64,000 nt of DNA from Streptomyces sp. NBC_01463. GTDB taxonomy: Bacteria > Actinomycetota > Actinomycetes > Streptomycetales > Streptomycetaceae. The notes beneath the pieces are model-generated. The model had not been told where the DNA came from, did no database searches, and saw nothing but the letters and a program-made list of their open reading frames with translations. Shown one piece after another: positions 8,540 to 18,320 of this stretch (the stretch's first letter is position 1; each line of letters begins with the position of its first letter). The position numbers and the translations under genes were made by a program. Location of the stretch: contig CP109468.1 in the NCBI GenBank assembly GCA_036227345.1, positions 1,178,001 through 1,242,000 of the forward strand, given 5' to 3'.

Positions 8540-9541
8540 TCAGGTCTGGCGCAGGGGTGCGTAGGAATCGCCGTCGAGCCCGAACGTCCACGCGACGCCT
8601 TCCTTGGCGGTCCGGGTCCTCGGCGGCACGCGCAGCCAGTACGTGCGGCTGGTCCCGTCCGGCTCCGGAGTGGAGTTGACCACCTCGACCATGGCCACGT
8701 CCTCGTCACCGTCGAGCGATATCCGCCAGAGGATGCCCGTCTCGTCCCGGTGGACCGGTTCGGCGCCGGACTCGGTGAGGTAGCGGTCGTATCCGTAGAA
8801 CTCCAGCATCACGCGCCGCAGTTCCGCGTTCTCCTCGGCCCGGATGCGCTCGGGGGTCAGTGCGCCCAGCTCCGCGAGGAACGCTGCGGGGACGGGCATG
8901 CCGCGCCAGGCGTACAGCACGAAGCCGTCGCGGTAGGCGAGCGCGGGCCCCTCGCCGCAGTCGAGCCGGCCCGCCTCGTCGCGGTGGAGCGCCTCGGGGC
9001 GTTCACTGATGACCACGGTGCGCTCGTAGGGCCACCACCAGCCCGCGTTCCTCGCCACTGCCGCGAGGCCGTCGAGCCGGTCGCCCCGGCCGTCGAACGC
9101 GGCGAGCCAGGCCGCGTCGTGCTGGCCCAGGACCGCGTCGAGCAGCACCAGCCGGACAGCCGACTCGTCCTCGGGCTGCACGGCGAGACCGGCCACGACA
9201 CCGGCCCGTATCCGGTCGGCGAGCGCGGACGTGGTCTCCCAGAGCTGGGCCCCGGTGGCGGACCACAGCGCGGACCAGCCGGCCGGACCCAACTCGTCGT
9301 ACATCCGGCGCCGTTCCTCCGCCCAGGGCCGGGTCCGTACGTCCTCACGCACCGAGCGCCCCGGGTCGGTCAGCTTCCCCACCGCCTCGACGGCGGCCCT
9401 GGGCGAATCGGCCCAGACGAACTCCTCCGGCTCGGCCAGACCGGCGCTGCGGTAGGCGAGCCGCACCCCGTCCTCGGCCGCGGCCCGGTCCGCCGCACCG
9501 GTCGCCGCCGCCACGGCCCGCCATGAGTCCACGTACTGCAT
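8540..9541 (-). CDS. DUF6745 domain protein
   Basis: 333 residues from ATG 9541. The diagnostic part is the region around 190-260: LHRDEAGRLDCGEGPALAYRDGFVLYAWRGMPVPAAFL, the repeated H-R-D-x-x-G / GPA-x-x-Y-x-D-G-x-x-x-Y-x-W pattern I associate with DUF6745. Following are EENAELRRVMLEFYGYDRYL and a beta-rich C-terminus (WRISLDGDEDVAMVEVVNSTPEPDG). Function unknown. It lies head-to-tail 111 bp after the small gene at 9653 and is divergent from the STM4015-STM4011 cluster. Such genes often neighbour leucine-rich STM4015-type proteins in Streptomyces, to my recollection, so a functional link is possible. Confidence 0.75.
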   Translation of the reverse strand: MQYVDSWRAVAAATGAADRAAAEDGVRLAYRSAGLAEPEEFVWADSPRAAVEAVGKLTDPGRSVREDVRTRPWAEERRRMYDELGPAGWSALWSATGAQLWETTSALADRIRAGVVAGLAVQPEDESAVRLVLLDAVLGQHDAAWLAAFDGRGDRLDGLAAVARNAGWWWPYERTVVISERPEALHRDEAGRLDCGEGPALAYRDGFVLYAWRGMPVPAAFLAELGALTPERIRAEENAELRRVMLEFYGYDRYLTESGAEPVHRDETGILWRISLDGDEDVAMVEVVNSTPEPDGTSRTYWLRVPPRTRTAKEGVAWTFGLDGDSYAPLRQT

Positions 9542-9979: not shown

Positions 9980-10154
9980 AGACGTCTCCCCTCCGCACCG
10001 GCACCCGCTGTGCCGGCCACACGGAAAACGCTACGGCGGGGGTCTGACAACCGGCCGGTGCGCGCCGTCGGCGGAGCCCGGTCGCCGCGTTGTCAGTGGG
10101 ACTTGATAGACCTTGCGGACATCAACCCGTCGCCGTCATCAGGAGCTCAGGGCC

Positions 10155-11108
10155 ATGTCCGGTGTGCACCACCTGCACGAGTTGCTCGGCCTTCCGGCCG
10201 TCGATTTCCAGACCGGGACGGAGGACGGCCCCCGGCCCGCCGCCGACGCGGTGGCCTGGCGCGTCTTCGTCGAGCCGTACGAGGACGAGGACCGCACCTG
10301 GGAGCAGGAGTTCACCGCCTTTCTGGAGGAGGTGGACCCGGCCGGCGTCCGTGCGCTGATCATCGGGCAGTGGGGCGAGTCGTACGAGGAGGACTCGTCG
10401 TACCCGATCGGTCTCGTGATCGCCGCCGCCGAGCGGCTGACGTCGCTGGAGGCGGTGTTCGTCGGCGACCTGACGATGGAGGAGGCGGAGATCTCGTGGA
10501 TCCAGCAGAGCGATGTCACCGCACTCCTCACCGCTTTCCCGGCGCTGCTGGAGCTGGGGGTGCGCGGCGGGAGCGGGCTCGTCTTCCCGGCCACCGAGCA
10601 CGAGCGGCTGCGTGCGCTCACCGTCGAGACGGGCGGACTGCCGGTGGAGGTGGTGCGCGGGGTTCTCGACAGTGAACTGCCCGCGCTGGAGCGCCTCGAC
10701 CTGTGGCTCGGCGTCTCCGCCTACGGGGGCGACACCGATGTCACGCATCTCGCACCGCTGCTGTCGGGGACGCGTTTTCCGGCTCTGCACCATCTCGGTC
10801 TGCGCAACAGCGAGGTGGAGAACGAGATCGCGACCGCCGTCGCATCGGCGCCGCTCGTGGCCCGGCTGCGCACCCTCGACCTGTCCTGCGGCACGCTCGG
10901 CGACGAGGGTGCGGCGGCACTGCTGGAGGGCCAGCCGCTGACGCATCTCGATGTCCTCGATCTGCACCACCACTTCCTGACCGAGCCGATGGAGCGCCGG
11001 GTCGCGGAGTCGCTGGAGCCGCACGGGGTGCGGGTGGACCTGTCGGACCGCTGCAAGCCGTGGGGCGACCGCGGGGCCGCGGGCCGCTACGTCACGGTGT
11101 CGGAGTGA
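10155..11108 (+). CDS. STM4015 family leucine-rich protein, copy A
   Basis: 317 residues from ATG 10155, chosen because conserved sequence begins at HELLGLPAVDF. Leucine-rich-like repeats run through the middle: SDVTALLTAFPALLELGVRGGSG, LPALERLDLWLGVSAYGGDT, FPALHHLGLRNSEVENEIATAVASAPLVARLRTLDLSCGTLGDEGAAALL, PLTHLDVLDLHHHFLTEPM. This matches the STM4015 family, named after a Salmonella protein encoded with two radical SAM enzymes. Function unknown. The C-terminus is a variable linker followed by RYVTVSE, shared with copy B. First gene of the six-gene cluster; the next starts 7 bases after its stop. Confidence 0.85.
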   Translation: MSGVHHLHELLGLPAVDFQTGTEDGPRPAADAVAWRVFVEPYEDEDRTWEQEFTAFLEEVDPAGVRALIIGQWGESYEEDSSYPIGLVIAAAERLTSLEAVFVGDLTMEEAEISWIQQSDVTALLTAFPALLELGVRGGSGLVFPATEHERLRALTVETGGLPVEVVRGVLDSELPALERLDLWLGVSAYGGDTDVTHLAPLLSGTRFPALHHLGLRNSEVENEIATAVASAPLVARLRTLDLSCGTLGDEGAAALLEGQPLTHLDVLDLHHHFLTEPMERRVAESLEPHGVRVDLSDRCKPWGDRGAAGRYVTVSE

Positions 11109-11115
11109 GAGCGCG

Positions 11116-12087
11116 ATGACGGACATCGAGCACCCCGGCACCTTCCACGGCCTGCCGGTCTTCACCCTGCCGCCGGCGGCGGACGATGTGTCCGCGGCGT
11201 CCCTGCCCGCGGCGGACTCCGTGGCCTGGCGGCTGGACTGTGCCTGGGAGGAGCCGGCCTTCCCCGGGGTCTGGCGGCGTTTCCTGGACTCCGTCGACCC
11301 GGCCGGGGTCCGTGCGCTGCTGATCGGCCCCTGGTGGGTCGAGGACTACGGCTCCTTCGCTCCGGTGGCGGAGCTGATCAGCGCGGACGCGAGCCGCTTC
11401 CCGGCGTTGCGCGGGCTGTTCCTGGCCGATGTCGTCGGCGAGGAGTGCGAGGTGTCCTGGCTGGAGATGTCGGACGTCACCGCGCTGATCGATGCGTTCC
11501 CCCACCTGGAGGAGCTGGTGGTGCGCGGCGGCGGGGAGGCGGACCACACGCTGGGGAGACTGCGGCTGCGCCCGGTGCGCCATCAGGCGCTGAAGTCGCT
11601 GCGGTTCGAGTCCGGAGGTCTGCCCGGGCCCGTCGTCCGCGCGGTCGGCGCGAGCGAACTGCCCGCGCTGGAGCGGCTGGAGCTCTGGTTCGGTGCCTCG
11701 TGGTACGGCGGTGACGCCACCGTGGAGGACATGAGGCCGCTCCTCGCGGGCGGCGGCTTTCCCCGGCTGCGCCATCTCGGCCTCCAGAACAGCGAGATCC
11801 AGGACGAGATCGCCGCGGCAGTGGCGTCCGCGCCGGTCGTCGCGCAGTTGGAGTCGCTCTCGCTCGCCATGGGAACGCTCAGCGACACGGGCGCCCTGGC
11901 CCTGCTCGACGGTCAGCCGCTCACCCATCTGACCTCGCTCGACCTGCACCACCACTACCTCACCGATCCGGTGATGGCGCGCGCCCGTGAGCTGTGTGCC
12001 CGCGAGGGCGTCCACGTGGACCTCGACGAGGCGGACTACTGGGATCCCGAGGACGACGAGCCCCGTTATGTCGCGGTCAGCGAGTAG
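11116..12087 (+). CDS. STM4015 family leucine-rich protein, copy B
   Basis: 323 residues. A diverged tandem paralogue of the preceding gene: shared landmarks are DSVAWRL, VDPAGVRALLIG, VSWLEMSDVTALIDAFPHLEELVVRGG, ELPALERLELWFGASWYGGD, RLRHLGLQNSEIQDEIAAAVASAPVV and LTSLDLHHHYLTDPV. The tail runs through an acidic linker (DEADYWDPEDDE) into PRYVAVSE, so the last seven residues match copy A in five or six positions although the linkers differ. Two copies in one cluster imply a heteromeric complex or two targets. Its last 20 bases overlap the next gene, so translation is coupled. Confidence 0.85.
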   Translation: MTDIEHPGTFHGLPVFTLPPAADDVSAASLPAADSVAWRLDCAWEEPAFPGVWRRFLDSVDPAGVRALLIGPWWVEDYGSFAPVAELISADASRFPALRGLFLADVVGEECEVSWLEMSDVTALIDAFPHLEELVVRGGGEADHTLGRLRLRPVRHQALKSLRFESGGLPGPVVRAVGASELPALERLELWFGASWYGGDATVEDMRPLLAGGGFPRLRHLGLQNSEIQDEIAAAVASAPVVAQLESLSLAMGTLSDTGALALLDGQPLTHLTSLDLHHHYLTDPVMARARELCAREGVHVDLDEADYWDPEDDEPRYVAVSE

Positions 12088-13210
12088 CGCGCCGCGCCTG
12101 GTGGTCGTCGGCAATCCCGGCAACCGCCGGGTCGGCCTCTTCCAGGACGCGGTGCGGGCCGCCGGGCTGCCGCCGGCCCGTACGGTGTCGTGGCTCGACG
12201 TCCTGAAGGGCGACGCGGTCTTCCGGGCCGGGGAGACCGTGCGTGTCGAGTCGCCTGGCGAGGACGCCGAGGTCGAGCGGCTGCTGCGCGATGTCGACGA
12301 CCCGACCCGGGTGGAGGGCTCGGCCCTCTGGTACGCACGCTTCACCTCCGCCGTACGAGAGGTGGCCCGGGCGGCGACGGCCGCGGGCGCCGTCCTGCTG
12401 GACGGCCCCGGCGACATCGCGGTGCTGTTCGACAAGCGGCTGTGCCACGGTGTCCTGGCCGCGGCGGGCGTCCCCGTTCCCGCATCGCCCACATCGGGAC
12501 CGGCCGCGCCCGCCGTGCGGGACTGGGCCGATGTGCGTGAGCTGATGGCGGACCACCGCATGCCGCGCGTGTTCGTGAAGCCCGCGCACGGGTCCTCCGC
12601 GTCCGGGGTGATGGCCCTGGAGACGGCCGGCCCCGGCCGGGTCCGGGCGACCACCTCGGTCGAGCGCGACCCGGCCGGCCGCCTCTACAACTCCCTCCGG
12701 GTACGCCGCTGCACGACGGAGCGCGAGGTCGCGGCGATCGTCGACGCGCTCGCGCCGGACGGTCTGCACGTCGAACGGTGGCTGCCGAAGGCCTCGCAGC
12801 GGGGCCGGGTCGCGGATCTGCGCGTCGTGGTGGTCGACGGCCGCGCCACCCATGCCGTCGTCCGCACCAGCCGCTCCCCCATGACCAATCTGCATCTCGG
12901 CGGCGCCCGCGGCGATCTGGACGAGGTGCGGGCCGCCGTCGCGGCGGCGGGCGGCAGCTGGGCCGGGGCGCTGGCCGTGTGCGAGCAGGCCGCCGCCGCC
13001 TTCCCGGACACGCTGTGCGTGGGCGTCGATCTGCTGCCCGCGACCGGCTGGCGGCGTTTCGCCGTCGGCGAGGTCAACGCCTTCGGTGATCTGCTGCCGC
13101 GGCTGACCGGTCTGCCGGGCAGCGGCGCCGAGGGCCTGGACACCTACGCGGCGCAGGTCGCCGCCGTACTGAACCGATCAAGGAACCACCGTGTCAGCGC
13201 ACCGTCCTGA
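12068..13210 (+). CDS. STM4014 family ATP-grasp-like protein
   Basis: 380 residues from ATG 12068, inside the end of STM4015 copy B; the frame is open further upstream but that part is only antisense-like noise in the previous gene. The N-terminus (RLVVVGNPGNRRVGLFQDAV) is a pre-ATP-grasp-like fold. The central RVFVKPAHGSSASGVMALE resembles the ATP-grasp P-loop-like segment, and GEVNAFGDLLP near the C-terminus resembles the metal-ligand region. ATP-grasp enzymes join a carboxylate to an amine or thiol, so it may ligate a group to a protein or small molecule. The family is defined by co-occurrence with STM4011-4015. Confidence 0.82.
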   Translation: MSRSASSAPRLVVVGNPGNRRVGLFQDAVRAAGLPPARTVSWLDVLKGDAVFRAGETVRVESPGEDAEVERLLRDVDDPTRVEGSALWYARFTSAVREVARAATAAGAVLLDGPGDIAVLFDKRLCHGVLAAAGVPVPASPTSGPAAPAVRDWADVRELMADHRMPRVFVKPAHGSSASGVMALETAGPGRVRATTSVERDPAGRLYNSLRVRRCTTEREVAAIVDALAPDGLHVERWLPKASQRGRVADLRVVVVDGRATHAVVRTSRSPMTNLHLGGARGDLDEVRAAVAAAGGSWAGALAVCEQAAAAFPDTLCVGVDLLPATGWRRFAVGEVNAFGDLLPRLTGLPGSGAEGLDTYAAQVAAVLNRSRNHRVSAPS

Positions 13211-14063
13211 ACCCCCCTCCGGCGTCATGGCCGCCACCGGTCCCGACATGAGCGAGGTCGTGGGCAGCCACGATCTGCTGCTCGTCACCCTGGACACCCT
13301 GCGGTACGACGTGGCGGCGGAGCTCGCCGCCGCCGGGCGCATCCCGCATCTGGCCCGGCATCTTCCGGGCGGCGTGTGGGAGAAGCGCCACGCCCCGGGC
13401 AGCTTCACCTTCGCCTCGCACCAGGCGATCTTCGCCGGGTTCCTGCCCACCCCCGCCTCCCCCGGCCCGCACCCCCGGCTGTTCGCCGCACGGTTCGCCG
13501 GCAGTGAGACGACGGCGGAGCGCACCTACGTCTTCGACACGCCCGATCTGGTCTCGGGCCTCGCGCGGACCGGCTATCGAACGGTGTGCATCGGCGGAGT
13601 GGGGTTCTTCAACCAACGGGCGCCACTGGGCTCGGTGCTGCCCGGAATGTTCCAGGAGGCGCACTGGGAGCCGGAGTTCGGTGTCGCCTCGCCGACCTCG
13701 TTCGAGGCCCAGGTGGCCCGCGCCGAGCAGGTGGTCGGAGAGCTCCCGGCCGGCCAGAGGCTCTTCCTCTTCGTGAACGTGTCGGCCCTGCACCAGCCGA
13801 ACTGGTTCCACCGCCCGGGTGCCACCCGCGACGCGGGCGACACCCGCGCCACCCACGCCGCCGCACTGGAGTACGTGGACGCCCACATCGGGCGCCTCTT
13901 CGCCGCCGTGAGCAGTCGCCGCCGCGCCTTCGCCATCGTCTGCTCCGACCACGGCACGGCGTACGGCGACGACGGCTACACCGGTCACCGGCTCGGTCAC
14001 GAGTCCGTGTGGACCGTTCCGTACGCGCACTTCTTCCTGGAACCGGGGGCCTCCGCACGATGA
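13191..14063 (+). CDS. STM4013 family sulfatase-like (alkaline phosphatase superfamily) protein
   Basis: 290 residues from GTG 13191 with a good AAGGAA ribosome site; overlaps the previous gene by 20 bases. Metal-site motifs of the alkaline phosphatase/sulfatase fold are visible: LLLVTLDTLRYDV at the start and CSDHGTAYGDDGYTGHRLGH near the end. The nucleophile region reads GSFTFASHQAIFAGFLP rather than the C/S-x-P-x-R of true sulfatases, so formylglycine is not expected and a Thr or Ser may be the nucleophile. Likely a phospho- or sulfo-ester hydrolase or phosphotransferase. No signal peptide, so it acts in the cytoplasm with its neighbours. Confidence 0.85.
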   Translation: MSAHRPEPPSGVMAATGPDMSEVVGSHDLLLVTLDTLRYDVAAELAAAGRIPHLARHLPGGVWEKRHAPGSFTFASHQAIFAGFLPTPASPGPHPRLFAARFAGSETTAERTYVFDTPDLVSGLARTGYRTVCIGGVGFFNQRAPLGSVLPGMFQEAHWEPEFGVASPTSFEAQVARAEQVVGELPAGQRLFLFVNVSALHQPNWFHRPGATRDAGDTRATHAAALEYVDAHIGRLFAAVSSRRRAFAIVCSDHGTAYGDDGYTGHRLGHESVWTVPYAHFFLEPGASAR

Positions 14064-15424
14064 CCGGCCTGCACACCGTCCGCCCGTACCAGAGCTACGT
14101 CTACGCCTATCCGCACAAGACGGCGTACAGCAGACTCTCCGAGCACCCCGAGGGGCGGCCCGCGCTGAGCGAGCTGTGGGCGGGTGAGCGCAAGGACGCG
14201 CTCTCGCTCTATCTCCACATACCCTTCTGCGAGGTCCGCTGCGGCTTCTGCAACCTCTTCACCCGGATCGGCGCGCCGGACGAGCTCACCACCCGCTACC
14301 TCGACGCGCTGGACCGGCAGGCGTCGGCCGTGCGGGACGCCCTGGGCGACGAGGAACCGGTGCGCTTCGCCGCCGCCGCGTTCGGCGGCGGGACACCCAC
14401 GTACCTGACGGCGGGCGAGCTGGAGCGGCTGTGCGACATCGCGGAGAAGCGCATGGGCGCCGATCTGCGCTCCGTGCCGCTGTCCGTGGAGACCTCGCCG
14501 TCGACCGCCACCGCCGACCGGCTGGCCGTCCTGGCCGACCGGGGGACGACCAGGATCAGCATCGGGGTGCAGAGCTTCGTCGAGGCCGAGGCCCGGGCGG
14601 CGGTCCGTCCGCAGCGCCGCGCCGATGTGGAGAAGGCCCTCGGACTGATCAGGGAGACCCGCATCCCGCTCCTCAACATCGACCTGATCTACGGCATCGA
14701 CGGCCAGACCGGGCGCAGCTGGCGCACCTCACTGGACGCGGCCCTGGAGTGGCGGCCCGAGGAGCTGTATCTGTACCCGCTGTACGTGCGTCCGCTGACC
14801 GGTCTGGGCCGGCTCGGGGCCGCCGGGGAGGCGGTGGCGGACGCGGCCTGGGACGAGCAGCGGCTGCGGCTGTACCGGGCCGGCCGCGATCATCTCCTCT
14901 CCCACGGCTACGAGCAGGTGTCGATGCGCATGTTCCGCCGCGCGGACGCCCCGCGGACGGACGGCCCCGACGACTACGCCTGCCAGACGGACGGCATGAT
15001 CGGCCTGGGCTGCGGCGCCCGTTCGTACACCTCGCGGCTGCACTACTCCTTCGACTACGCGGTGGAGATGCGCGAGGTGCGGGCGATCATCGACGGCTAC
15101 ACCGCCACCGAGGACTTCTCGCACGCGGAGGTGGGACGGTTCACCGACGGGGACGAGGCGCGCCGCCGTCACCTCCTGCAGTCCGTGCTGCAGGCCGAGG
15201 GGCTGCACGTGTCCGAGTACCGCGAGCGTTTCGGTACGTCGCCCCACGAGGACTTCCCCGAGGAGCTGGCGCGGTTCGGGGACCGGGGCTGGCTCGACGC
15301 GGGCGCGGCGGCCGGCGGCCTGCTGCGGCTGTCCCCCGAGGGCCTCGCCCACTCCGACGCGCTGGGCCCCGACCTCTTCTCCCCCGCCGTACGGGCCGCG
15401 ATGGCCGCGTACGAGCTGAAGTGA
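14060..15424 (+). CDS. STM4012 family radical SAM protein (HemW-like)
   Basis: 454 residues from ATG 14060, which shares ATGA with the stop of the STM4013 gene. The radical SAM cluster motif is CEVRCGFC (Cys57, Cys61, Cys64), preceded by YLHIPF as in HemN/HemW proteins. GGGTPTYL is the SAM-binding GGE-like element, and RISIGVQSF and NIDLIYGIDGQT are also HemW-like. The C-terminal part resembles the HemN C-terminal domain. It is not a coproporphyrinogen oxidase by context: it sits with a second radical SAM gene and STM4013-4015 members. The chemistry is unknown; a methyl- or alkyl-transfer is possible from its relatives. Confidence 0.88.
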   Translation: MTGLHTVRPYQSYVYAYPHKTAYSRLSEHPEGRPALSELWAGERKDALSLYLHIPFCEVRCGFCNLFTRIGAPDELTTRYLDALDRQASAVRDALGDEEPVRFAAAAFGGGTPTYLTAGELERLCDIAEKRMGADLRSVPLSVETSPSTATADRLAVLADRGTTRISIGVQSFVEAEARAAVRPQRRADVEKALGLIRETRIPLLNIDLIYGIDGQTGRSWRTSLDAALEWRPEELYLYPLYVRPLTGLGRLGAAGEAVADAAWDEQRLRLYRAGRDHLLSHGYEQVSMRMFRRADAPRTDGPDDYACQTDGMIGLGCGARSYTSRLHYSFDYAVEMREVRAIIDGYTATEDFSHAEVGRFTDGDEARRRHLLQSVLQAEGLHVSEYRERFGTSPHEDFPEELARFGDRGWLDAGAAAGGLLRLSPEGLAHSDALGPDLFSPAVRAAMAAYELK

Positions 15425-15431
15425 GCCCCGT

Positions 15432-16343
15432 ATGGACCTGACGATCCTCTACCGCGGCCCCCTCGCGTCGTGCGACTACGACTGCCCCTACTGCCCGTTC
15501 GCCAAGCGGCGTGACAGCCGGGAGCAGCTGCGGGCCGACCGGGCCGCGCTGGAGCGGTTCACGGCGTGGGCGGCGGCGCAGACCGGGGACCGGATCTCGG
15601 TGCTGTTCACACCGTGGGGCGAGGGCCTGGTGCGCTCCTGGTACCGCCGGGCACTGGTCGAGCTGTCCCGGCTGCCGCACATCCGCCGGGTGGCGATCCA
15701 GACGAACCTCAGCGGCCGTACGCAGTGGCTGGCCGCCGCGGGCGCGGCGGGCCGCGACAAGATCGCGCTCTGGTGCACGTACCACCCGGGCCAGACACCG
15801 TACGAGCGTTTCCTCGCCCGGTGCGGGGAGCTGGCGTCCCTGGGGATCCGGCACAGCGTGGGGGTGGTCGGTCTCGACGGCCATCTCGACGAGGCGCGGC
15901 GGCTGCGGGCGGCCCTGCCCGACGAGGTCTACCTCTGGGTCAACGCCGCCGAGGGGCACACCTACACGGACGAGGAGGCGGACCGGTGGACGGCGGTCGA
16001 CCCGCTGTTCCCGTACAGCCGCCATCCGCACCGCTCGGCCGGTCTGCCGTGCCGGACCGGTGAGTCGGTGATCTCGGTGGACGGTGACGGCACGGTGCGC
16101 CGCTGCCATTTCGTCCGGGCCGAGCTCGGCAATCTCTACGACGGCAGCTACCGCCGGGCGCTGGGGCCGCGGGCCTGCCCGCTGGCCGTCTGCGACTGCC
16201 ACATCGGCTATGTGCACCTGGAGACGCTGCCGCTGTACGACGTCTTCGCGGGCGGTGTACTGGAGCGCATACCGGCGACGCCCCCGCCGGCGTCAGTCCC
16301 CCCGGGCACCCCGGCCGGTGGTCCGGGTGCCCGGGGGGACTGA
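15432..16343 (+). CDS. STM4011 family radical SAM protein
   Basis: 303 residues, starting 8 bases after the STM4012 stop. The radical SAM motif CDYDCPYC (Cys14, 18, 21) is near the N-terminus. In the C-terminal third, a Cys in GTVRRCHFV (near 223) and the cluster ACPLAVCDCHIG (near 248-256) look like ligands for an auxiliary iron-sulfur centre, as in SPASM/twitch enzymes that modify peptides. Such enzymes often act on a protein or peptide, which fits a cluster whose other members include two repeat proteins of unknown role. Last gene of the cluster; its final codons overlap a terminator hairpin. Confidence 0.88.
   Translation: MDLTILYRGPLASCDYDCPYCPFAKRRDSREQLRADRAALERFTAWAAAQTGDRISVLFTPWGEGLVRSWYRRALVELSRLPHIRRVAIQTNLSGRTQWLAAAGAAGRDKIALWCTYHPGQTPYERFLARCGELASLGIRHSVGVVGLDGHLDEARRLRAALPDEVYLWVNAAEGHTYTDEEADRWTAVDPLFPYSRHPHRSAGLPCRTGESVISVDGDGTVRRCHFVRAELGNLYDGSYRRALGPRACPLAVCDCHIGYVHLETLPLYDVFAGGVLERIPATPPPASVPPGTPAGGPGARGD
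16294..16342. terminator. Terminator hairpin overlapping the STM4011 stop codon
   Basis: Perfect 18-bp stem (16294-16311 with 16325-16342) with a 13-base loop. The right arm ends in the TGA of the STM4011 gene, so the hairpin is built from its last codons. It lies between convergent genes and can serve both the STM40xx cluster and the SGNH hydrolase gene. Confidence 0.75.
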
Positions 16344-16358
16344 GGACAGCGGGGTCCC

Positions 16359-17201
16359 TCAGAGAGGCAGCAGGTCGGGCCGCTTGGCCCCGACGTGGTC
16401 CCCCGAGGACTCGCCGCGCAACCGCCTGCCGATCCACGGGACCAGGTACTCGCGCGCCCAGTGGATGTCGTCGCGCCGTACTTCGAATGTTCCGCGCTGC
16501 ACCTGCGGCGGCCACGCCTGGTCCGGGTCGGCCGGCACGTCGAGGCCGAGGACCTGGGCGGCGCGCAGCGCGACCCGGGTGTGTCCCTCGGGCGACAGGT
16601 GCAGCCGGTCGTCGTCCCAGGCCCGCCGGTCCTGCACCGAGCGCAGGGACCAGAGGTCGAGGACCGGGCAGTCGTAGCGGTCGGCGATGGACCGCACATG
16701 GGCCGTGTAGGTGGCGATCTTGCCGCGCAGATGGCGCAGCACGGGAACGTTGCGGGTGTCGAAGCCGGTGGTGACCATGACGGTGCCGACCGACCTGGTC
16801 AGTTCGGCGACCGCGCGCTCGAAGCGTTCGGCCACGTCGTCGGGGTCGGTGCCCGGCCGGATGATGTCGTTGCCGCCCGCGCAGAAGCTCACCAGATCGG
16901 GGGCGAGTTCCCTGGCGCGCGGCACCTGCTCCTCGACTATCTGGTCGAGGAGGCGTCCTCGTACGGCGAGATTGGCGTATCGGAAATTCCCGTGCGCGGG
17001 GCCCGTGGCGCCCGTCGCGCCGGTGCCCGGGAGCTGGTCCGCGAGGAGTACCGCGAACCGGTCGGCCCAGCCGACGAACGTTCCGTCCGGGCCGGGGTCG
17101 CCGACTCCCTCGGTGAAGCTGTCGCCAATCGCCGCGTACGACCCGATGGCGCCCTGTCTGTTGTTGACGCCCTGCTGGATGTTGTTCGAATCGTCTGCCA
17201 C
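16359..17201 (-). CDS. SGNH/GDSL-family hydrolase
   Basis: 280 residues from GTG 17201. Block I is AAIGDSFTEGVGDP (catalytic Ser), block II has ANLAVRG, block III is FCAGGNDIIRPG, and block V is WDDDRLHLSPEGH with the catalytic Asp and His. All four SGNH residues are present. No signal peptide is evident, so it is probably a cytoplasmic esterase, lipase or acetylhydrolase. A short polar N-terminus (ADDSNNIQQGVNNRQG) precedes the domain and may be dispensable. Convergent with the STM40xx cluster and probably unrelated to it. Confidence 0.88.
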   Translation of the reverse strand: MADDSNNIQQGVNNRQGAIGSYAAIGDSFTEGVGDPGPDGTFVGWADRFAVLLADQLPGTGATGATGPAHGNFRYANLAVRGRLLDQIVEEQVPRARELAPDLVSFCAGGNDIIRPGTDPDDVAERFERAVAELTRSVGTVMVTTGFDTRNVPVLRHLRGKIATYTAHVRSIADRYDCPVLDLWSLRSVQDRRAWDDDRLHLSPEGHTRVALRAAQVLGLDVPADPDQAWPPQVQRGTFEVRRDDIHWAREYLVPWIGRRLRGESSGDHVGAKRPDLLPL

Positions 17202-17306
17202 AAGGGCTTATCCTGCACCGCCGAATGTGACCTACGCGACCGTAATAAGGGGTTGACGGGTGGTGAGATAGACCACCCGGTCAGTTTTTGGTAAAGGGGG
17301 AATAAG

Positions 17307-17340
17307 CAGAGGGACGGTGCGCCGCCGCACACCGTCCCTC
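17307..17340 (-). terminator. Terminator after the LysM-M23 peptidase gene
   Basis: 12-bp perfect inverted repeat AGAGGGACGGTG / CACCGTCCCTCT with a 10-base GC-rich loop, 45 bases past the peptidase stop. It separates that gene from the SGNH hydrolase gene downstream. Confidence 0.7.
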
Positions 17341-17384
17341 TATGCATTGCTCAGGCCCGGATCACCGGACCGGTGGTTGCTGGA

Positions 17385-18320
17385 TCAGACGTTGATCCCG
17401 TGCGACGCCAGGTAGGCGATCGGGTCGATGTCCGAGCCGTACGCCGGGCCCGTGCGGACCTCGAAGTGGAGGTGCGGGCCGGTGGCGTTGCCGGTGGCGC
17501 CGGAGAGGCCGACCTGCTGGCCCGCGGTCACGGTCTGGCCCGCCGAGACGGAGAGCGAGGACATGTGGCCGTACTGCGAGTAGTGGCCGTCGGCGTGCTT
17601 GATGACGACCTCGTTGCCGTACGCGCCGCCCCAGCCGGCGGTGACGACGGTGCCGGAGGTGATGGCCTTCACGCTCGTGCCGGTGGCGACGGGGAAGTCG
17701 ATGCCGGTGTGGCTGCCGCTGGACCAGCTGGCGCCGGAGGCACGGTAGGCGGTGGTGTGGTTGCCCGGGACCGGGTGGACGTAGCCGGAGCTGTCGCTCT
17801 GGGTCGCCGGGGCCGAGGTCTCCTTGGAGGAGGAGGCGTCGGAGGAGGACGAGTTGGAGACCGTGGAGGCCTTCGTCTCGGTCTTCGCCGGGGCCTTGGA
17901 GGGGGCCTTCGACGGGGTGGTGGCGCCGGTGGAGGTCTGCGCCGCGGACTTGCCGCCGAGCGTCAGCTTCATGCCCGGGAAGATCAGGCTCGGGTCGTCG
18001 CCGACGACCTTGCGGTTGTCCTGGTACAGCTTCTCCCAGCCGCCCTTGAGCTTGTGCTGGGCGGCGATCTTCGAGAGGTAGTCGCCGGAGACCACGGAGT
18101 ACGTCCTGGAGCCGGCCTGCTCCTTCGCCACCGGCTTGGCCGGGGTGGCGTGCGTGGCGGCGGCCGACTTCGAGGTCGCGGGAGCGGCCTGCTCCGCGGC
18201 GTTGGCACCGGTGGCGCCGAGCAGCGGAAGCGCGATGACGGCTCCGCCGGCACTCGCGACGACGACGCCACGGGCGATGGTGCTGGACTTGGGACGGCGG
18301 TGCTTACCCGATATGGGCAT
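17385..18320 (-). CDS. Secreted LysM-M23 peptidoglycan endopeptidase
   Basis: 311 residues from ATG 18320. A signal peptide (basic MPISGKHRRPKSS, hydrophobic core, ANAA near 42) is followed by a LysM domain (YSVVSGDYLSKIAAQHKLKGGWEKLYQDNRKVV, about 73-120) that binds peptidoglycan, then a Ser/Thr/Ala-rich linker, then an M23 zinc endopeptidase domain (about 200-305). Metal ligands are HTGIDF (His, Asp) and HLHFE (His). It should cut peptide cross-links during wall growth, germination or division. The upstream leader folds as a c-di-AMP riboswitch, so the gene is controlled like other Streptomyces cell-wall lytic genes. Confidence 0.93.
   Translation of the reverse strand: MPISGKHRRPKSSTIARGVVVASAGGAVIALPLLGATGANAAEQAAPATSKSAAATHATPAKPVAKEQAGSRTYSVVSGDYLSKIAAQHKLKGGWEKLYQDNRKVVGDDPSLIFPGMKLTLGGKSAAQTSTGATTPSKAPSKAPAKTETKASTVSNSSSSDASSSKETSAPATQSDSSGYVHPVPGNHTTAYRASGASWSSGSHTGIDFPVATGTSVKAITSGTVVTAGWGGAYGNEVVIKHADGHYSQYGHMSSLSVSAGQTVTAGQQVGLSGATGNATGPHLHFEVRTGPAYGSDIDPIAYLASHGINV

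Follow-up and report, generated by a model that had tools for sequence, protein, structure and literature searches.

The 64,000-nucleotide (nt) stretch of Streptomyces sp. NBC_01463 DNA analysed here (contig CP109468.1, positions 1,178,001 to 1,242,000 of the forward strand), referred to as the window, carries an operon built from the STM4011 to STM4015 protein families. A preliminary description of this DNA had reported six such genes in the order given below, among them two radical S-adenosylmethionine (radical SAM) enzymes. All six are present in that order, adjacent and on one strand, and all five families score over the curated cut-offs of their NCBIfam models:

10155..11108, plus strand: STM4015A, a leucine-rich-repeat (LRR) protein of 317 amino acids (aa); NF038076, 382.8 bits (cut-off 275)
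11116..12087, plus strand: STM4015B, a leucine-rich-repeat paralogue of 323 aa; NF038076, 364.6 bits (cut-off 275)
12068..13210, plus strand: STM4014, a predicted ATP-grasp ligase of the ArgX/LysX/RimK fold; NCBIfam, 469.9 bits (cut-off 175)
13191..14063, plus strand: STM4013, a hydrolase of the alkaline phosphatase superfamily; NF038075, 424.4 bits (cut-off 250)
14060..15424, plus strand: STM4012, a HemN-type radical SAM enzyme; NF006067, 635.1 bits (cut-off 380)
15432..16343, plus strand: STM4011, a radical SAM enzyme with a SPASM-like C-terminal region; NF038073, 413.4 bits (cut-off 200)

The junctions measure 7, -20, -20, -4, and 7 nt in order, where a minus sign denotes overlap. STM4014 most likely starts at ATG 12068, within the 3' end of STM4015B, and the STM4014/STM4013 junction becomes +16 nt if STM4013 starts at the later ATG 13227 rather than at GTG 13191. 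The 9.07-Mb genome of the window contains one STM4011 gene.

The arrangement is conserved well beyond this genome. Loci (L numbers) were collected from plasmid records and from one scan of genome contigs in which the best 80 of 538 relatives were taken, so that Bacillota and Streptomyces are over-represented. The order STM4015-4014-4013-4012-4011 on one strand is kept in 83 of 86 loci, which shows that the operon arrangement is not due to chance. The three exceptions are a Bacteroides plasmid (L014) that lacks STM4012 and has only a truncated STM4013, L076, where STM4015 and STM4014 were not found upstream of the remaining genes, and L080, whose contig starts just before STM4011; L077, one of the 83, has only a piece of STM4014. 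The whole operon occurs in five phyla (Actinomycetota, Bacillota, Deinococcota, Pseudomonadota, and Cyanobacteria) and in partial form in Bacteroidota. STM4011 and STM4014 occur in the same 13 plasmid records. Among 121 genomes of the same genus (G numbers), STM4015 is over its cut-off in 56, STM4011 in 55, and both in 53 (Fisher p 5e-28, not corrected for kinship); the two genomes with STM4011 alone are G310, with a partial gene, and G391, where the cluster meets a contig edge. The cluster had been described as lacking an assigned function, and we likewise found no functional paper on it. Two papers name an STM401x gene, and the passages found (excerpts, as are all PMC-numbered sources cited below) give it no function. 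The literature search returned no use of the STM4011–STM4015 family names, nothing for 2RA8/Q64V53 or DUF6745, and nothing joining radical SAM with leucine-rich repeat when these were combined with further terms.

The central observation concerns the C-terminus of STM4015, which in both window copies ends in a short tail:

11085..11105, plus strand: C-terminal tail RYVTVSE of STM4015A, its terminal glutamate (Glu) directly before the stop codon
12064..12084, plus strand: C-terminal tail RYVAVSE of STM4015B

The terminal Glu is found in 332 of 334 full-length STM4015 homologues (120/120, 93/95, and 119/119 in three sets, each holding the best 120 of far more numerous matches). Left out of the 334 are 26 proteins that stop short of the tail, nine of which also end in Glu, and the two exceptions are one protein that ends two residues early and one run-on fusion. 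Glu is likewise the last residue in 79 of 79 non-redundant STM4015 open reading frames (ORFs) at the loci, whose STM4014, STM4013, STM4012, and STM4011 products have variable ends. Seven homologues from five phyla share a layout of an acidic linker, an aromatic-rich stretch, and the terminal Glu, which is the sole invariant tail residue among them. A tail arginine, R311, is kept in 40 of 40 aligned sequences and is missing from the Salmonella and Bacteroides tails. A degenerate DNA pattern of the tail plus stop codon has three sites in the genome of the window, two of which are STM4015A and STM4015B; the third is at chance level, since the reversed control gives four. A solved structure of an STM4015 homologue exists, 2RA8 from Bacteroides fragilis (profile E 3.9e-78), and its sequence includes the Glu, as residue 354 of 362, the last eight residues being presumably a tag. 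Most Bacteroidota-type STM4015 proteins among the matches listed carry an N-terminal WGR domain (PF05406).

Copies of STM4015 outside the operon provide a further comparison. In a first set, composed of eleven copies in genomes with the system and three in genomes without STM4011 over cut-off, Glu is kept in 8/11 and 0/3, respectively. Two of the latter three genomes hold remnants: a 53.9-bit STM4011 fragment with an internal stop in G385, and in G361 two fragments, of about 22 bits, of DUF6745, a family described below. A larger sample added six copies with the system, all ending in Glu and all from 30 loci chosen for their likeness to a tailed query, and one orphan without Glu (G589). Combined, the counts are 14/17 with the system and 0/4 without it (Fisher p 0.006, not corrected for kinship), in a comparison that is small and partly selected and in which the tail types suggest that several tail-less copies represent one clade. 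Two of the 14 tailed copies (G355, G549) are separated from the operon by only about 5 kb. These counts exclude G602, whose decayed cluster retains an STM4015 with a terminal Glu, the decayed G360, G625, where a contig break leaves most of the system, and the weak matches of G524 and G344. G531 (L159, 5238-8870) has STM4013-4012-4011 and the DUF6745 pair without STM4015 and STM4014; it counts mildly against dependence, or represents a recent deletion. The terminal Glu, together with its tendency to track the system in extra-operon copies, speaks for the earlier proposal that STM4015 is a substrate or scaffold. Extra-operon STM4015 proteins with a different tail occur at L108, L109, L112, L113, and L160, and four of these five end in GP(L/V)(S/T)Y.

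STM4014 had been proposed to ligate, and its predicted fold agrees with such a role, being nearest in Foldseek to LysX, ArgX-LysW, PsnB, and RimK, with Z scores of 24.2 for ArgX, 23.9 for LysX, and 23.4 for RimK. When a profile of diverse STM4014 sequences was compared with the PDB, RimK was the best match (5zct, 1.3e-4) and LysX scored 9.9e-4 (1uc8). The RimK family model gives STM4014 28.8 bits and is not passed (cut-off 143.4), and the near ATP-grasp folds also include small-molecule ligases.

Both reported radical SAM motifs are borne out by alignment. In STM4012 the CX3CX2C cysteines C57, C61, and C64 are invariant in 17/17 sequences, and the protein matches HemN (1olt, 3.5e-56) and the methyltransferase NocN (9p2u, 1.2e-33) in the PDB. 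STM4012 thus resembles the HemN-type radical SAM enzymes (HemN, HutW/ChuW, NocN) but scores far too low for the heme family models (HutW 140.4 bits against a cut-off of 400, HemN 125.4 against 324.95). A second STM4012-like gene of 272.6 bits, under the cut-off of 380, lies elsewhere in the genome of the window (G000:C1:8422448-8423731), and at least nine other genomes have one of like score and length. In STM4011 the CX3CX2C cysteines C14, C18, and C21 are invariant in 6/6 sequences, as are the C-terminal C208, C226 (in G-x4-C), C250, C255, and C257. The motif and this second cysteine-rich region liken the protein to the SPASM radical SAM enzymes, and SkfB is matched at 1.6e-4 (6efn); the five invariant C-terminal cysteines (n=6) compare with seven in the full SPASM consensus. 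From these features we infer radical chemistry for STM4012 and STM4011.

For STM4013 the preliminary description had suggested trimming, or the transfer of a phospho or sulfo group. Its PDB profile matches include a phosphodiesterase-nucleotide pyrophosphatase (3.8e-6) and an arylsulfatase (6.6e-6). The nucleophile position, assigned by eye from the sulfatase signature C-x-P-S-R, is a threonine, T61, invariant in 16/16 sequences. A formylglycine-type sulfatase was rejected on this ground, as the residue is neither Cys nor Ser. Thr nucleophiles are found in phosphodiesterases and phosphoethanolamine transferases. Sulfo chemistry and peptide trimming therefore become unlikely, and STM4013 is best read as a phospho-, not a sulfo-, hydrolase. 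No signal peptide was seen by eye in STM4013.

Divergent from the operon, two further genes were recognized:

8540..9541, minus strand: DUF6745 protein, accessory member; Pfam PF20530, 380.4 bits
9653..9979, minus strand: small 108-aa protein carrying conserved HxH and HxEH pairs, the partner of the DUF6745 protein (alignment n=15)

In the small protein H45, H47, H77, E79, and H80 are invariant in 15 sequences; it has no PDB relative at E 1, and neither NCBIfam nor Pfam matches it at E 0.001. The divergent pair is present in 18 of 21 actinobacterial loci (all except L076, L090, and L097), in Methylobacterium, and in one Deinococcus locus, and in 0/57 of the loci L019-L075, nearly all of which are from Paenibacillus and Saccharibacillus. 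Further loci place it in two more Deinococcus and in Nonomuraea, not in Embleya. A DUF6745 match of more than 350 bits occurs in 44 of the 121 same-genus genomes, all 44 with STM4011 over cut-off, and in 0/66 genomes without STM4011 (p 6e-23); in 43 of the 44 it is on the same contig as an STM4015 match and within about 2.5 kb of it, G400 having it on another contig. More distant DUF6745 proteins are also found in genomes without the cluster. DUF6745 and the protein of about 100 residues are thus part of the system in Actinobacteria, Deinococcus, and Methylobacterium. When the neighbours in 85 loci were clustered (ORFs of at least 80 aa, the 30 largest groups named by eye), no other group spanned more than 17 loci and the others were mostly confined to Bacillota; no peptidase, transporter, or peptide gene was seen to recur with the five genes. 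The DUF6745 proteins of L017 (10894-11904) and L018 (4619-5638) have by eye an N-terminal leucine-rich stretch that is absent from that of the window.

The region upstream of the operon contains a candidate regulatory element:

10090..10112, plus strand: promoter-like element TTGTCAGTG-N8-TAGACC, RecA-NDp/PafBC-like, 65 nt before STM4015A

The RecA-NDp consensus is TGTC-R-GTG-N8-TA, and on sequence grounds the putative element matches it. In its strict form it precedes 19 of 20 actinobacterial loci and occurs 0 times elsewhere in their 898,766 nt-strands; it is absent from L094, Nonomuraea, and Embleya (19/22 actinobacterial loci in all). The pattern was shaped on these loci, and the count thus shows a conserved element and is not an independent prediction. 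The search of the window gave one match against 0.78 by chance, so the window site taken alone proves nothing. Primer 6735F, next to the UV-inducible gene SCO6735 with its RecA-NDp promoter, has the same spacing (PMC5087735), and the PafBC motif is closely resembled by RecA-NDp (PMC8223512). Among the extra-operon STM4015 copies, the element is found before 6/14 tailed and 0/7 tail-less ones (p 0.06), in those six 69-102 nt before the aligned start.

Other lineages have other elements that resemble damage-response sites. An SOS-like GAAC-N4-GTTC lies within 300 nt upstream in 25 of the 57 Bacillota loci L019-L075, a count that does not take in L016; the 26 sites compare with 0.31 expected from the remainder of the loci, and they are spread over 6 of 22 protein-similarity groups at differing positions. 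All three of three Deinococcus loci have a palindrome that agrees with the radiation/desiccation motif at 12 or 13 of its 15 positions; it is placed 26-42 nt ahead of the gene for the small protein, and the locus has no other site of that score. It precedes the accessory pair, not STM4015, in all three, and in L169 sits inside an annotated hypothetical gene; the L168 site (12 matches) is weak, since shuffles of its region reached 13. No SOS box above shuffles was found at the single loci of Salmonella, Methylobacterium, Undibacterium, and Acaryochloris. The radiation-induced five-gene operon ddrTUVWX of D. deserti was considered and is a different operon, with SWIM zinc finger, MoxR-like, and VWA proteins (PMC2669436, PMC5552922); no MoxR or SWIM gene is annotated beside the D. 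taeanensis cluster in the stretches seen. From the excerpt on the LexA regulon of S. venezuelae, its radical SAM gene vnz_31145 could not be equated with any gene of the operon (PMC9380542).

Taken together, we consider it fairly probable that STM4015 is an LRR carrier or target whose terminal Glu is extended by STM4014 before radical chemistry follows, with all or part of the system induced by DNA damage in several lineages. The computed basis consists of the tail conservation, the predicted STM4014 fold, the invariant Thr, the gene linkage, and the upstream elements. In this scheme the acidic, probably flexible tail of the carrier or target would present one free Glu, a carboxylate of which STM4014 would activate with ATP and join to the amino group of a presumed small amino compound, by analogy with LysX acting on LysW and RimK acting on RpsF. 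STM4012 and STM4011 may then introduce radical changes into the attached group or the neighbouring tail Tyr, Trp, or Arg, and STM4013 would remove or transfer a phosphate or phosphodiester in the cytoplasm, with DUF6745 and the small protein as likely accessory partners. DNA damage is predicted to turn on all or part of the system in Actinobacteria, part of Bacillota, and Deinococcus. A fuller version, which we put forward only tentatively, is a DNA-damage-induced, protein-tethered assembly line in which LRR carriers, encoded in the operon and in trans, hold the amino compound on Glu, the radical SAM pair and the phosphohydrolase build the group, and three regulons (PafBC, LexA, DdrO) have taken up the system in independent lineages.

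Known systems offer partial parallels. Like LysW, which has about 55 residues, STM4015 would be a carrier with a C-terminal Glu, and STM4014 has the predicted LysX/ArgX-type ATP-grasp fold; the carrier here is, in contrast, an LRR protein of about 300 residues instead of a small acidic one, and the operon adds two radical SAM enzymes, a phosphohydrolase, and DNA-damage-like promoters. In LysW systems the substrate is held by an isopeptide bond between its amino group and the gamma-carboxyl of the carrier Glu. LysX acts on its carrier LysW (PMC4490483), and RimK is an ATP-grasp ligase acting on the C-terminus of the ribosomal protein RpsF (PMC10092738). STM4014 shares with RimK the fold and a presumed action on a protein C-terminus, but its target would be an LRR protein of the same operon and further enzymes would follow. 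In the pearlins (TglA/TmoA), a ribosomal scaffold undergoes amino-acid chemistry, radical SAM included, at its C-terminus (PMC9303977), a resemblance to the scheme proposed here. Their loading enzyme uses aminoacyl-tRNA (PMC9016710) and not an ATP-grasp fold, and their scaffold is a short peptide from which a protease frees the product. NCBIfam and Pfam scans gave no release peptidase among the operon genes of the window, and an M32 carboxypeptidase-like neighbour (by eye) was seen in four loci, three of Paenibacillus and the Paenibacillus plasmid L016. As no recurrent release peptidase or transporter was seen, the product may remain attached to STM4015 or be freed by an enzyme encoded elsewhere.

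The last point bears on a rival account, in which the terminal Glu with the residues around it is where the final modification sits and the altered LRR protein, for example cross-linked or tailed with a poly-amino acid, is itself a stress effector, with no small molecule made. Besides the absence of a recurring peptidase or transporter, this account draws on the tailing of a ribosomal protein by RimK (PMC10092738), the conserved R311, and the WGR domain of the Bacteroidota homologues. Two radical enzymes and a phosphohydrolase nevertheless exceed the needs of a tailing ligase, and the Arg is missing from the Salmonella and Bacteroides tails; we regard the account as doubtful. It is unlikely that STM4015 is a mere protein-protein scaffold whose Glu docks the enzymes, the true substrate being a free small molecule or an unlinked peptide. 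Docking peptides seldom need an invariant last residue right before the stop, and several tailed copies per genome, some of them outside the operon, fit substrates better. LRR proteins do commonly bind partners, radical and phosphatase-like enzymes could act on a metabolite, and small-molecule ligases are among the near folds of STM4014, but a recurrent peptide gene was not seen beside the cluster among ORFs of at least 80 aa.

We give almost no credence to a third account, in which the end of STM4015 is conserved as a signal in the DNA for translating STM4014. The STM4014 start does often lie near or inside the STM4015 end, yet the terminal Glu is encoded by GAG in 45 and by GAA in 40 of 85 cases, all three stop codons are used, and the spacing ranges from -65 to +141 nt, which shows that Glu is kept at the protein level and not by a DNA constraint. 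Extra-operon copies that no STM4014 follows still keep the tail, and translational coupling as the cause of the Glu was rejected by these codon, stop, and spacing counts.

The C-terminal Glu, the DUF6745/small-protein pair, the promoter elements, and the 2RA8 structure are additions to the preliminary description. With them, a widespread operon without a known function gains a candidate modification site, a candidate enzyme pair (STM4014 on the STM4015 tail), and a candidate inducer, DNA damage. If correct, the proposed scheme would add to LysW and the pearlin scaffolds a further type of C-terminal protein carrier and would tie radical SAM chemistry to the bacterial DNA-damage response.

Several smaller observations concern the surroundings of the cluster. 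On the Bacteroides finegoldii plasmid of L014 (9572-9817 and 9920-11527), STM4011 has a C-terminal extension that by eye resembles a HAD-type domain, and the Salmonella locus L015 has a separate Cof-type HAD gene after STM4011. A VWA-domain gene is divergent from an STM4015 tandem on a Deinococcus taeanensis plasmid (L168, 174-2192). In the window, GDSL lipase and LysM-M23 peptidase genes (16359-18320, minus strand) lie convergent beyond the end of the operon.

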